A stretch of 32,977 nucleotides of DNA from positions 1 through 32,977 of the forward strand of contig QHWJ01000060.1 of NCBI GenBank assembly GCA_003222535.1, written 5' to 3'. Both the position numbers and the translations under genes were made by a program. Shown piece by piece: positions 2,368 to 31,045 of this stretch. The notes below the pieces were generated by a model that saw nothing but the letters and a program-made list of their open reading frames with translations, had not been told where the DNA came from and made no database searches. This stretch comes from Acidobacteriota bacterium. Lineage in GTDB: Bacteria; Acidobacteriota; Vicinamibacteria; Vicinamibacterales; CAVVIG01. Position 1 is the stretch's first letter. Each line of letters opens with the position of its first letter.

Positions 2368-2939
2368 TCGACCGCCGGACGACCGAGACCGAGATCCGGC
2401 TCGGCCTCGGGCTCGACGGCAAGGGGCGGTATCGCGTGCGGACCGGAATCCGCTTTCTCGATCACATGTTGGAGCTCGTCGCGCGTCACGGGGCCTTCGA
2501 TCTTCGCATCGACGCGCGCGGCGACCTCGACGTCGACCAGCATCACACCGTGGAGGATCTCGGGATCGCCCTCGGCGAGGCGGTGTCGAAGGCGCTGGGG
2601 AACCGGCGGGGCATCAATCGCGCCGGCTATTTCGTGATGCCGATGGACGAGACGCTGGCCGTCGCCGCAGTGGACCTCGGCGGCCGGCCGCACACCGTGG
2701 TCGATCTGCAGGTGAAGCTCGCGCGGGTCGGCGATCTCCAGACCGAGCTCGTCCACGATTTCTTCGAGGGCTTCTCGATCGGCGCGAGGGCCAACGTCCA
2801 CGTGAAGGTGCTCTACGGCCGGTCGAGCCACCATAAGATTGAAGCCGTCTTCAAGGCGTTCGCGCGCGCGCTGCGCGTCGCCTGCGCGAAGGATCGCCGG
2901 CTCGCCCGCATGTTACCGAGCACCAAAGGCCTGCTGTGA
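2352..2939 (+). CDS. hisB: Imidazoleglycerol-phosphate dehydratase
   Basis: This is a monofunctional manganese-dependent dehydratase that converts imidazole-glycerol phosphate to imidazole-acetol phosphate. The 195-residue protein has the duplicated metal-binding motifs QHHTVED and SHHKIEA, plus FLDHM near the N terminus. Length matches the bacterial monofunctional enzyme, and the HAD phosphatase domain of the enterobacterial fusion is absent. The frame stays open further upstream, but homology begins at the GTG at 2352, inside the end of hisC. The end overlaps hisH in a GTGA arrangement. Confidence 0.95.
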
Positions 2940-3550
2940 TCGCGCTCATCGATTACAAGGCCGGCAACCTGACGTCGGTGAAGAAGGCGCTCGCCACGAT
3001 CGGCGCGGACGTCTTCGTGCCCCAATCGCCCGGCGATCTGGCCGAGGCGAGCGGCATCATCGTCCCCGGCGTCGGACACTTCGGGGCGACCCGGGCGCTC
3101 GATCAATCCTGGATCGACGCGATCCTGGCCCGCGTCGGCGAAGGTCGGCCGCTGTTTGGCATCTGCCTGGGCATGCAGTGGCTGTACGAAGGCAGCGACG
3201 AAGCGCCGGACTGTCCCGGACTCGGACTGTTCAGCGGACGATGTTTTCGGCTGGGAACGGTCCGGCTTCAGCCGGACCGGAACATCAAAGTTCCCCACGT
3301 CGGCTGGAACAGCCTTTCGATCGAGCGTCGCATGTCGATTGTCGAGGGTGTCCAGGCAAACGCACAGGTGTACTTCACACACAGTTACGCGGCGCCGCGG
3401 AGCGGCGAGACGGTCGCCATCACGGAGCACGGCGGGGCCTTCACCGCAATCGTGCAGCGCGGGCAGGTCGCCGGCGTGCAGTTCCACCCCGAGAAATCCG
3501 GGGATGTCGGACTTCGCATCCTCAGGAACTTTCTGGAGCTGGTAGGATGA
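2936..3550 (+). CDS. hisH: Imidazole glycerol phosphate synthase, glutaminase subunit
   Basis: HisH is a class I glutamine amidotransferase that feeds ammonia to HisF through the HisF barrel. The 204-residue product has PGVGHFG (oxyanion strand), the nucleophile in GICLGMQ near residue 77, and the catalytic His-Glu in FHPEKSG near 183. The GTG start overlaps the hisB stop by 4 nt. A perfect 9-bp hairpin (3258-3279) lies in frame between CFRLG and the conserved KVPHVGWN strand, and adds about nine residues (GTVRLQPDR) not expected in the family. The catalytic residues are untouched, so the enzyme is probably active. It pairs with hisF, separated from it by a long inverted repeat. Confidence 0.95.
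3258..3279. repeat. Small GC hairpin inside hisH
   Basis: Perfect inverted repeat with 9-nt arms cggtccggc / gccggaccg around the loop TTCA. The gc-TTCA-gc or gc-TTTA-gc centre is shared with hairpins at 27540-27559 and 28290-28309, so it looks like one copy of a dispersed small palindromic family inserted in frame. Confidence 0.75.
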
Positions 3551-17953: not shown

Positions 17954-18394
17954 CGGCGCAGCGACGAGCGCCACACGCGATCTCGGGCCACCTGCGCGCG
18001 CACGAGGTCGCTCCGCGTTCGCGCCCAGTCCGTCAGGAAGCCTATCGACTCGTCCCAATCCGCGTTCGTATAGGCCTCGCGCGACGGATCGGCGTAGTTG
18101 GCCTCTCGAATCTGGTCGGCCACGCGCGTGACTTCCGACTCCAGCCACCCAACCCCTGACGCCGGTGCGCCGACCGGGGCCTGGAGAATCGAATCGGCGC
18201 ATTCGAGCAGCGTGTTCAGGTAGAGCTCGCGCAGCTCCGTGAACTGGAACGCGCGCAGCACGAGCCGGTTGCGACGACTCTCCGGGCCGTCGTCGATGTT
18301 CCTGAAAATGGAATAGGCCGGGCTCTCCCAGAACGTATTGCTCTTGTCCCACGGGATCGGCAGTATTTGAGGGAGGAGCAACGCAGCCAGACCC
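17950..18394 (-). pseudogene. CotH-kinase family protein, C-terminal remnant
   Basis: The minus-strand frame reads IPWDKSNTFWE, then RLVLRAFQFTELRELYLNTL, then a final stretch with YTNADWDESIGFLTDWARTR. This is the order seen at the end of CotH-kinase-like proteins: a W-D-x-x-N-T-F metal site, a helical re-placement segment, and a conserved (F/Y)(S/T)N-x-D-(F/W) near the C terminus. Only about 145 residues are present. The kinase N-terminal half is missing, and the frame runs into a GC-rich palindromic repeat at 18395 exactly where homology stops. CotH kinases phosphorylate secreted proteins; this copy lacks most of the catalytic core. Confidence 0.65.
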
Positions 18395-18456
18395 GGGGTC
18401 CCCAACGCGGCAGCCGCGTTGGGGTGGAGAAGGGATGCAGCGCGGCTCGAATGCAG
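18395..18456 (+). repeat. GC-rich palindromic repeat, copy A
   Basis: A perfect 11-bp hairpin, ccccaacgcgg (18400-18410) / ccgcgttgggg (18414-18424) with a 3-nt loop, is preceded by ggggtc and followed by tggag-gggatgc-tcgaatgcag. The same string order occurs on the opposite strand at 19932-20026. Confidence 0.85.
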
Positions 18457-19389: not shown

Positions 19390-20307
19390 CCACGCTCCCG
19401 CTTCTGATGCTCCCACGCCACGGACTCGACCCCCGCGCCTTCCTCCGTCACCTGACGCCAGGGTCCTCGAGTGACGTCCGCGGATCCAGCCACGTGTGCT
19501 GCTCGACCGTCACGCGTCGGACTGCAAGATCTCGCGCGGCTCGAACACAATCTGACTGATTGCGGGCGAAGACGTCCTCGATTGGGACTGGAGCGTCCTT
19601 CCTGCGCCATGCGCGCCGCGTCGACGGACCAGGACATCCAAAACACGCGCCAGTTGAGCGAGCTCGAGGACACAGGGATACGGCCGGGGGCGCCGCCGCG
19701 GACGCAAACGTCCCTCCGACGCGCTGTCCCGTCGCACGAGCGCTTCGGGTGCCGGCGCTGACAATCAGGTGAACAGCACTGAGATCGGGGACGAGACTGC
19801 GGTATCCGCCGCGAAACAGCCGCTGCAGGTGCCGCTCGAAGGCGTCCAGCGGCGCCGAGCGGCTGCATCGGCGGCGTCACGCGGCGATCGCCGGCCGCCC
19901 GTCCAGCAGCCCGCGGTAAAAGTCCGGCTGCATTCGGGGCCCCCAGCGCGGCTGCCGCGCTGGGGACCCCGTTCGACCGGCGACGCATCCCCGCTCCACC
20001 CCGACGCGTCTGCCGCGTTGGGGACCCCGGCGCCGGCGCCGTTGCTCCTCCGTCAAATCATTGCCCGATATTCTCCATCGTCGCGCCTGCCATCGGGGCG
20101 CCGCGCCGGCTTCGGTGCGACGCCGGGACTTTCCGCACGGGCTGCTTGACATCACTCGACACGTCAAACTTGTAAGTCGGTAATGAAAATGTCCCAGGGT
20201 GGCGGGACTATAGCACCAACGCCGGAGCGGGCACTCGAAGACCGGCAACCTTCGTCGTTTGACGCCGGGCCGATGAGCACGATTGGAAGCATAATAGCGT
20301 CCTCAAC
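19390..20307. other. Decayed region without an intact gene
   Basis: No frame in either direction gives a convincing full-length protein. On the minus strand, short protein-like pieces occur in different frames, for example DFYRGLLDGRPAIAA just before 19877, LDAFERHLQRLFRGGYRSL near 19830, and VEQHTWLDPRTSLEDPG near 19480. They suggest a broken gene upstream of the PLD gene and in its direction. I could not assign the family. Copy B of the palindromic repeat lies inside it at 19932-20026. Confidence 0.5.
19932..20026 (-). repeat. GC-rich palindromic repeat, copy B (double unit)
   Basis: It has two hairpins: ccccagcgcgg / ccgcgctgggg (19941-19965, perfect 11 bp) and ccccgacgcg / cgcgttgggg (one mismatch, 19999-20023). 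Read on the minus strand it gives ggggtcccca...ggggtggag...gggatgc...tcgaa...gaatgcag, matching copy A at 18395. Copy A looks like this element with the second hairpin removed. Confidence 0.82.
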
Positions 20308-26912: not shown

Positions 26913-28321
26913 TTGCCCAGCGCCCGCGCCAGCCGGGCATCGGCGAGGTGCGCGTTGGCAAGCGCCTGGGTTCGATCCAGCTCGGCCTGCAGCAGCGCCA
27001 CGTGGGCGTCCAGCACGTCGGTGCTGGTCGCCACTCCCGCCGCGAAGCGATCGCCGAGCACCCGGCGCGCTTCGGTCGCGCTGCGAACGGCGTCGGAGGC
27101 GGCATCGATCGCGGCACGGCTCGCGTCGAGCTCGCTCAGACGCTGCCGGATCTCGACCGCCAGCGAGGCGTCGAAGTCGGCGAGCCGTTCCTGAACGGCC
27201 CGGGCCGACGCCACCGCTTCCGCCATCTCGCTGCGCACGCGTCCGCCGTCGAAGAGCGGCCAGTTCACGTTCACGCTCGCGTCCCACGACGCTCGCCACG
27301 CCTCCTCGCGTGGAAAAATACGCGGGTTCGGGCGCGCGTAGTCGATCCCGCCGCCGGCGGCGACGATCGGCCTGGTTTGAGCGGTCGCGGCCCGGCTGCG
27401 TTCGGTGGCGGCGCCGAGGCGCTTGACCAGCGCCGCCCGCTCGGGCCGCTGCCGCCTGGCCGTGTCAATCAACGACGCGAGCGGCTCGCGCGCAACGGAG
27501 GCCGGGGAGGGCGCCCCTTCACGGGTGCCGGACTCGTAGGGCACCGCTTCAGCGGTGCCGAACGCTTCGAGAGCCGTACCCGGAGGGACGCCGACGAGCC
27601 GCGCCAGCTCCGCTTCGGCGACGTCGCGTGCCGCGCGCGCCTGGACGGCCAGCATCCGCTGTCGCGATTCCTGCGCCTCCACGGTGAAGACATCGCTCGG
27701 CGGCACGAGTCCGGCTGCCAATTGATTGCGCACGTCCTTCAAATGGGCGGCGATGCGGGTGACGGCCTCCTCCACCACGCGCCGCGATTCGGTCGTGGTG
27801 ACGAGCGACCAGAACGCGCGGGTGATCTCCAGCGTCAGATCGGCGCGGGCCGTCGCGATCTCATCAGCCGACGCCGTGGCGTCGATGCGCGCGGCTCGCT
27901 CGAGCGCGTCGAGACGGCCGCCCGTGTAAATCGGCCACTGGAGATCGAGCCGCGTGCGGTAGTTGTCGGGGACGTCGGGATAGATGACGCGGAGCTGGTT
28001 GTTCGGCAGCAGGATCCCAAACGTGTCCACGTGATTGGTCCGGGTGTAGCCGGCCTGCCCGGCGATCTGCGGCAGCGTCGCGGCGCGGCGCTCGCCGACA
28101 ACGGCGCCGGCCGCGTCGCCGCGGGCGGCCGCCTCCGCGATGCGATGGCTCGTCTCGAGACCCCGCCGGACCGCATCGTCGAGCGTCACCCGCAGCGGCG
28201 CCGGCTCAGGCGTCTGCGCCGTGGCGATCGGCGGCAGCCACAACAACACCGCCGTCAGCCACGCGGCGCACCGCAGAACGCGTTCGTAGGGCCCCGCTTT
28301 AGCGGTGCCGCTCGTGTTCAT
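26909..28321 (-). CDS. TolC-family outer-membrane efflux protein with hairpin insertions
   Basis: The 470-residue protein has a signal peptide (RVLRCAAWLTAVLLWLPPI, cleavage after ATAQ), then two outer-membrane-efflux repeats: LDDAVRRGLETSH, WPIYTGGRLDALERA and NQLAAGLVPPSDVFTVEAQ in the first, and VNWPLFDGGRVRSEMAEAV and DRFAAGVATSTDVLDAHVAL in the second. These fit the periplasmic coiled-coil barrel and beta-barrel of TolC. Two stretches look foreign. The first ten residues (MNTSGTAKAGPYE) come from a hairpin placed before the signal peptide. A mid-protein segment (GTAEAVPYESGTREGAPSP) comes from a tandem pair of the same hairpin. Both ends couple to neighbours through ATGA overlaps. Confidence 0.92.
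   Translation of the reverse strand: MNTSGTAKAGPYERVLRCAAWLTAVLLWLPPIATAQTPEPAPLRVTLDDAVRRGLETSHRIAEAAARGDAAGAVVGERRAATLPQIAGQAGYTRTNHVDTFGILLPNNQLRVIYPDVPDNYRTRLDLQWPIYTGGRLDALERAARIDATASADEIATARADLTLEITRAFWSLVTTTESRRVVEEAVTRIAAHLKDVRNQLAAGLVPPSDVFTVEAQESRQRMLAVQARAARDVAEAELARLVGVPPGTALEAFGTAEAVPYESGTREGAPSPASVAREPLASLIDTARRQRPERAALVKRLGAATERSRAATAQTRPIVAAGGGIDYARPNPRIFPREEAWRASWDASVNVNWPLFDGGRVRSEMAEAVASARAVQERLADFDASLAVEIRQRLSELDASRAAIDAASDAVRSATEARRVLGDRFAAGVATSTDVLDAHVALLQAELDRTQALANAHLADARLARALGK
27509..27559. repeat. Tandem pair of small hairpins inside the TolC gene
   Basis: The second unit is a perfect hairpin, ggcaccgc-ttca-gcggtgcc (27540-27559), preceded by cgtag. The first is imperfect, ggcgcccc-ttca-cgggtgcc (27510-27529). 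Each encodes a stretch of the type GTAEAVPYE/GTREGAPSP in the TolC frame. Confidence 0.8.
28285..28309. repeat. Small hairpin at the TolC gene start
   Basis: cgtag then ggccccgc-ttta-gcggtgcc (28290-28309, one mismatch). It encodes SGTAKAGPYE in the TolC frame, parallel to GTAEAVPYE from the copy at 27540. It lies between the start codon and the signal-peptide core. Confidence 0.82.
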
Positions 28322-30930: not shown

Positions 30931-30942
30931 GGAAATGGATGC

Positions 30943-31045
30943 TGGTTGCTAGTTAGTAGTTACTGGTTACTGGTTACTAGTTACTAGTTACAAGCAACTA
31001 GCAACTAGCAACTAGCAACTAGCAACTAGCAACTAACTGGTTAGT
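30943..31045. repeat. Inverted heptamer array between TetR and epimerase genes
   Basis: The left arm has ttactgg, ttactgg, ttactag, ttactag units. After ttacaa the right arm is six identical tandem heptamers gcaacta (30994-31035), then actggttag. The arms pair as gttgctagtt / aactagcaac. This is the most regular array in the window. It occupies the divergent promoter region; the remaining 31046-31179 shows nothing I can name except the ribosome site GGAG at 31171. Confidence 0.93.

Follow-up and report, generated by a model that had tools for sequence, protein, structure and literature searches.

The window analysed here, the 32,977 nucleotides of contig QHWJ01000060.1 from an Acidobacteriota genome, contains a gene for a TolC-type outer membrane efflux protein (OEP) into which three copies of a short hairpin are built at two places (Table 1). 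The gene is read from the minus strand, while the hairpin letters are quoted from the plus strand. Its ATG, at position 28321, is preceded by GGGAG and overlaps the stop codon of the ABC gene upstream, an arrangement that puts the N-terminal hairpin (copy 1) within the region that is likely translated. This copy lies 12 nt past the start of the open reading frame (ORF) and encodes GTAKAGPY(E) ahead of a hydrophobic stretch resembling a signal peptide. In the middle of the gene, copy 2 encodes GTAEAVPY(E) at residues 255-262 of the protein, and its neighbour, copy 3, which carries a GGAG tag and one inner mismatch, follows at a distance of 30 bp in the same frame and encodes GTREGAPS. This 30-bp spacing recurs in other arrays of the same hairpin family.

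Table 1. Coordinates of the TolC-type gene, its hairpin copies (REP copies) and the hairpin within hisH
Feature	Positions	Strand	Basis and letters
TolC-type outer membrane efflux protein gene (OEP), 470 aa	26909..28321	-	Pfam OEP E=1.3e-53; TolC chains by phmmer; coding prediction
REP copy 1: GTAG tag and hairpin	28286..28309	+	One mismatch to family consensus; plus-strand letters GTAGGGCCCCGCTTTAGCGGTGCC
REP copy 2: GTAG tag and hairpin	27536..27559	+	Exact consensus; GTAGGGCACCGCTTCAGCGGTGCC
REP copy 3: decayed tandem neighbour of copy 2	27506..27529	+	GGAGGGCGCCCCTTCACGGGTGCC
Sister-family hairpin inside hisH (2936-3550), encodes VRLQPD	3260..3277	+	Family listing, alignment and DNA; GTCCGGCTTCAGCCGGAC

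An earlier note on this DNA had proposed that one hairpin family is inserted at two places of a single TolC gene, and both the genome-wide counts and the orthologue alignment presented below bear this out. The peptides that it read from the copies (GTAKAGPYE, GTAEAVPYE and GTREGAPSP) are encoded as it stated and in a single frame, and the CGTAG prefix that it saw on two of them is indeed present. The centre gc-TT(C/T)A-gc that it ascribed to all copies is found in two of the three, the centre of the third being ccTTCAcg, and this third copy begins with its decayed tag at 27506 instead of 27509. When up to three mismatches are allowed, the window yields four matches (two places, both counted on each strand), whereas 0.04 are expected in shuffled sequences; copy 3, with its four mismatches, does not enter this count. 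Single-sequence structure prediction of the protein reached a mean pLDDT of 50, too poor to place the inserts, and its low-confidence segment at residues 254-281 is compatible with a loop. A tblastn comparison of the TolC protein with phages gave one weak and uninformative match. Elsewhere in the window, positions 18365-18451 and 19972-20058 form an inverted pair with 87-nt arms that are 84% complementary and contain a CCCCAACGCGGC palindrome, another repeat candidate, and a degenerate GTTACTAGTTACTGG / AGCAACTAGC tandem at 30940-31033 forms inverted arms.

At the genome level, the family pattern (GTAGGGCACCGCTTYAGCGGTGCC) is found with up to three mismatches at 169 places of the 8.06-Mb genome, divided almost evenly between the strands (85 and 84), while the same pattern read backwards is found at none under the same threshold. 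The distribution of these places over many contigs rules out an assembly artefact. Each unit measures 24 nt and is formed by an unpaired GTAG at the foot and 8-bp arms, with CTTYAG at the centre. Copies occur singly, as inverted pairs and as direct arrays, the latter mostly at 27-45 bp, and, apart from a few bases at the foot, the 20 nt on either side of 84 of the copies are not conserved. In 1.32 Mb of sequence from this genome, a sample partly chosen around the hairpin family (regions around copies plus 60 long contig stretches, most of them holding copies), 160 CTTYAG-centred hairpins were counted against 14 in the reversed sequence. This centre was used because the scan for GTAG hairpins with any centre was too noisy (197 against 88 in the reversed sequence).

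Judged by its sequence, the family is classed here as a GTAG-class REP element and not as part of a REPtron. REPs of this class are palindromes of 20-40 bp with an unpaired GTAG at one foot, as is the 24-nt unit, and they are dispersed in high copy number, in pairs or arrays, as are the copies described here. They are also mostly extragenic, in agreement with the 56 intergenic copies among the 93 that have at most one mismatch, the intragenic share being nonetheless substantial. In the portions of PMC2817692 and PMC3733652 compared, the GTAG REPs and their associated RAYTs likewise combine a GTAG head, a palindrome and a short centre with more than 100 copies in pairs or arrays; the REP of H. 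influenzae (GTAGGGTGGGCTTcAGCCCACC), listed in PMC2817692 together with one of Thioalkalivibrio (GTAGGTCGGCCTTCAGGCCGAC), has the same plan and centre as the TolC-type family. By contrast, the TolC-type stem is absent among the GTAG REP stems in those portions, and a RAYT flanked by it was not found in this genome. Two other classes were considered and rejected. The MITEs of PMC3733652 span 70-300 bp with terminal inverted repeats of 15-30 bp, in contrast to a 24-nt unit with unconserved flanks. Rickettsia palindromic elements, for which the compared part of PMC3733652 cites in-frame cases, are also palindromic repeats read in frame within unrelated proteins, an RPE-like behaviour that the present copies share inside genes; RPE-4 and RPE-6, however, carry a CGTC tag, whereas the tag here is GTAG.

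A sister family with the same centre (GTCCGGCTTYAGCCGGAC) occupies 174 places of the genome with at most one mismatch. Its copy in the window lies in hisH, where the encoded VRLQPD directly precedes KVPHVGWN in a loop of the protein (window 3240-3295). A single Y1_Tnp gene was found in the genome; its translation contains an HVHLL motif, and the gene lies between an exact sister-family hairpin and a stem variant of that hairpin. No copy of the TolC-type family flanks this gene, the nearest listed on the contig being ~7 kb away. According to the part of PMC8266576 consulted, TnpAREP proteins recognise GTAG plus hairpin and cleave single-stranded DNA. A REPtron, in which the RAYT gene is flanked by the stem in question, does not describe the TolC-type family, as the sole RAYT found has sister-family flanks in an assembly that is 95.5% complete, so that another RAYT could be missing.

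The two families differ in their spread among genomes. With at most one mismatch, the TolC-type family was detected in three of the 60 genomes compared, including its own, with 93 places in its own genome, two in G040 and one in G009. The match in G040 was discounted as non-independent, since its contig (L103, G040:C843) is 99.8% identical over 2,195 bp to a contig of the genome under study (C403, L099), the two genomes belonging to different genera; this identity would reflect bin contamination or recent transfer. An exact scan of a named genome collection, which may omit records very near the window, retrieved one stretch, from the Acidobacteriota MAG JAUSDY010000024.1, where the copy is flanked by two longer ORFs and overlaps the very end of a mechanical ORF of 110 residues. 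The exact sister stem, on the other hand, is present in 29 of the 60 genomes, and sister-family counts are high in the relatives G013, G023, G021 and G041. From this difference, the TolC-type family looks like a young, nearly genome-private burst and the sister family like an older, shared one.

The history of the in-gene copies can be followed in the relatives of their hosts. The mid-gene insert of the TolC-type gene is missing in all 23 aligned orthologues, which leave a gap of ~15 residues, and this absence identifies it as an insertion and not as a TolC motif. The site falls between the two OEP repeats, where the aligned proteins vary in length. The peptide of copy 1 is likewise found in none of the 21 orthologues whose N-terminus is covered (L042 and L045 run off their contigs there, and L056-L061, partial or ~30% identical, were kept out of the alignment). 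An exact empty site at the DNA level was found in none of the TolC orthologues, the closest of which is 74% identical in protein. Furthermore, the peptides inserted in PurH, the amidase, MetH and the DnaK-type gene of this genome are missing in the 8, 9, 5 and 9 aligned relatives, respectively; these alignments and that of the HisH site were restricted to loci covering the insertion site, leaving out L174, L175, L185-L187, L191-L194, L196, L197, L199 and L209-L211. One PurH relative (L166) presents GGRAFGSAGG in the loop that holds the insert here. Its DNA could be a decayed tagged hairpin, in which case the PurH insert of this genome may predate the burst.

Hairpin-like inserts, some of them decayed, were also encountered in other genera at four of the nine insertion sites checked. 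The TolC N-terminus in G016 contains two hairpins, one of them GTAG-tagged; the second PurH loop in G011 contains GTCCGGCTTGAGCCGGAC and an imperfect copy; and the first DnaK-type loop carries a decayed hairpin in G011 and a GGGCGGAGCAAGCTCCGCCC palindrome in G014. In the HisH loop there is an imperfect hairpin in G014 and one exact plus one imperfect in G023, all belonging, like the hairpin in the window, to the sister family and read as VRLKPD-type peptides. The HisH inserts of the window and of G023 are oriented differently, which points to separate insertions, although inheritance followed by decay could also account for them. At the remaining five sites (TolC mid-gene, first PurH loop, amidase, the MetH linker with its two inserts and second DnaK-type loop), no hairpin-like inserts were seen in other genera. 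As a separate observation, lineage-specific tandem repeats of SQVDG-type and QHSAPST-type occur at or near insertion sites of this genome in the N-terminus of the G002 TolC orthologue (L035) and in the G016 amidase (L176), respectively. In the compared portion of PMC3733652, one shared site is described (recB of two Xanthomonas), in contrast to the four of nine sites that recur in other genera here.

Besides the intergenic copies, 28 of the 93 lie wholly inside predicted genes and nine partly so. Given that genes, called with a codon-score gene finder written for this analysis, make up ~86% of the classified sample, they are avoided by the hairpins, yet not spared. In four of the nine partial copies (4/93 overall) the TAG of the tag serves as stop codon, a use also known for GTAG REPs and their flanking genes. 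Of the 20 other predicted ORFs that hold a whole copy, 18 were compared with Pfam, leaving aside C101 (81 aa) and C180 (70 aa), and 17 of these match, among them PurH, the MetH domain set, HSP70 (DnaK-type), DNA polymerase III alpha subunit, Omp85, amidase, polyprenyl synthetase, a MutL-type protein and biotin ligase; the predicted ORF on C419 has no Pfam match. GTAG and CGTC REPs wholly inside ORFs were described in 2013 (PMC3733652), and the portion compared includes several copies per ORF, dimers, N-terminal cases, hosts such as DNA polymerase and repair genes and TAG as stop codon; its passages on frame or phase contain no test of the reading frame.

The in-gene copies of the TolC-type family show a bias in reading frame. 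More than one frame is stop-free in each orientation, antisense copies being readable as GTAEAVPY or APLKRCPT and sense copies as VGHRFSGA or, for the C variant, RAPLQRC. All 21 copies in well-supported (strong) genes (16 genes of more than 150 residues that score above 25) keep to a single frame in each orientation, 14 of them encoding GTA[EK]A(V/A/G)PY-type and seven VGHRFSGA-type peptides, and five further copies with two or three mismatches in strong genes agree. The other seven of the 28 in-gene copies, in weakly scored genes and excluded from the 21, follow the same frame in six cases, C419 being the one that differs. Tagged hairpins with other stems obey the rule in seven of eight cases in strong genes, with an alternative frame at C313:65473. 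Counter to a strict rule, two copies with two mismatches each in a DUF2085 gene (C162) are read in the alternative frame. Independent antisense sites are divided 11 to 0, or 11 to 1 counting C162, with a chance under equal use of 0.0005 or 0.003. Spacings between neighbours are multiples of three in 9/9 cases within one strong gene against 14/39 outside genes, the former figure being partly built in because both copies must share one open frame.

The earlier note had taken the preserved frame as a sign of a length and frame preference or of strong selection. The bias is real; an intrinsic, codon-measuring preference common to hairpins is rejected, given that C162 uses the other open frame and that the sister family is not frame-locked, with two frames in each orientation in strong genes (sense 4 and 5, antisense 3 and 1; 13 copies, not all independent). 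It is possible, if doubtful, that the frame is set by target choice, with hairpins entering between C and G, a step that in this GC-rich genome is commonest at the codon boundary and would yield the frame seen in each orientation. Among the 84 copies, 85% have C before them and 64% have G after them, and 50% of the CG dinucleotides in predicted genes span a codon boundary. Nevertheless, under such a null just 59% of the open antisense insertions would fall in the frame observed, compared with 11/11 (p=0.0033) or 11/12 (p=0.018), so that target preference helps and seems insufficient alone. Given this partial effect and the several frames of the sister family, the bias more probably arose by selection against harmful frames than by a mechanism that measures codons, and the frame mix of the sister family would speak for the removal of a peptide with Cys and basic residues.

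In-gene copies might instead be retained because their RNA hairpins adjust translation or the stability of the transcript, with the N-terminal TolC copy acting on initiation. In line with this idea, the three copies tested have RNA folding energies of -11.5 to -16.3 kcal/mol, copy 1 lies close to the start of its ORF and the strong hosts C216, C225 and C339 have copies within their first eight codons; mid-gene positions, the use of both orientations and the absence of the elements from aligned relatives make such a role improbable. Retention of the peptides for their function, that is, the reusable protein module put forward in the earlier note, is more improbable still. The strong frame bias and the near-identical peptides of 16 well-supported genes are what such a module would produce; the host proteins, however, are unrelated, their relatives manage without these peptides, the likeness of the peptides follows from the identical DNA of a young family and the sister family is read in several frames. 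A conserved TolC motif of the usual kind, encoded in relatives by non-palindromic DNA, which the earlier note had set as the alternative to its own reading, is rejected by the orthologue alignment and by the same DNA at many unrelated places.

In all, these hairpins are very probably GTAG-class REPs from a recent, near-private burst, whose in-gene survivors sit in tolerant sites and are translated as passive extra residues. REPs of this class are short and non-autonomous, and a RAYT (Y1 HUH transposase) presumably mobilises them in the form of folded single strands. After a recent burst of the TolC-type family, nearly confined to this genome, copies inside genes would survive at a linker, loop or terminus that tolerates them, provided that the frame is kept, no stop codon is introduced and the peptide is acceptable. 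In the TolC-type gene the outcome would be one copy just past the start codon and a tandem pair between two OEP repeats, probably all read as passive additions. A bolder extension, unlikely on present evidence, is that the stem itself has been shaped by life in genes, its 24 nt (8 codons) offering, whichever way round they lie, one frame that is open and benign, so that the unit can enter coding sequence with no frameshift, and that a limited set of loops (PurH, DnaK-type, HisH and the TolC N-terminus) acts as recurrent landing pads for hairpins across genera, so that mobile DNA would steadily supply core enzymes of this bacterial group with longer loops.

Gene-borne hairpins are already known from other bacteria, and no account of the present case was found in the open-licence literature on Acidobacteria, as far as it was covered. 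What is new is not a system but a young and unusually frame-faithful case with clear frame and loop statistics. It catches the spread of a mobile hairpin inside genes at an early stage, with near-identical copies in core enzymes and relatives without these inserts available for comparison, and the frame and loop statistics of the TolC-type family can separate insertion bias from selection. For annotation, it warns that peptides such as GTAEAVPYE, VGHRFSGA and VRLKPD, where this group's proteins contain them, can come from mobile DNA that is read through and need not be motifs.
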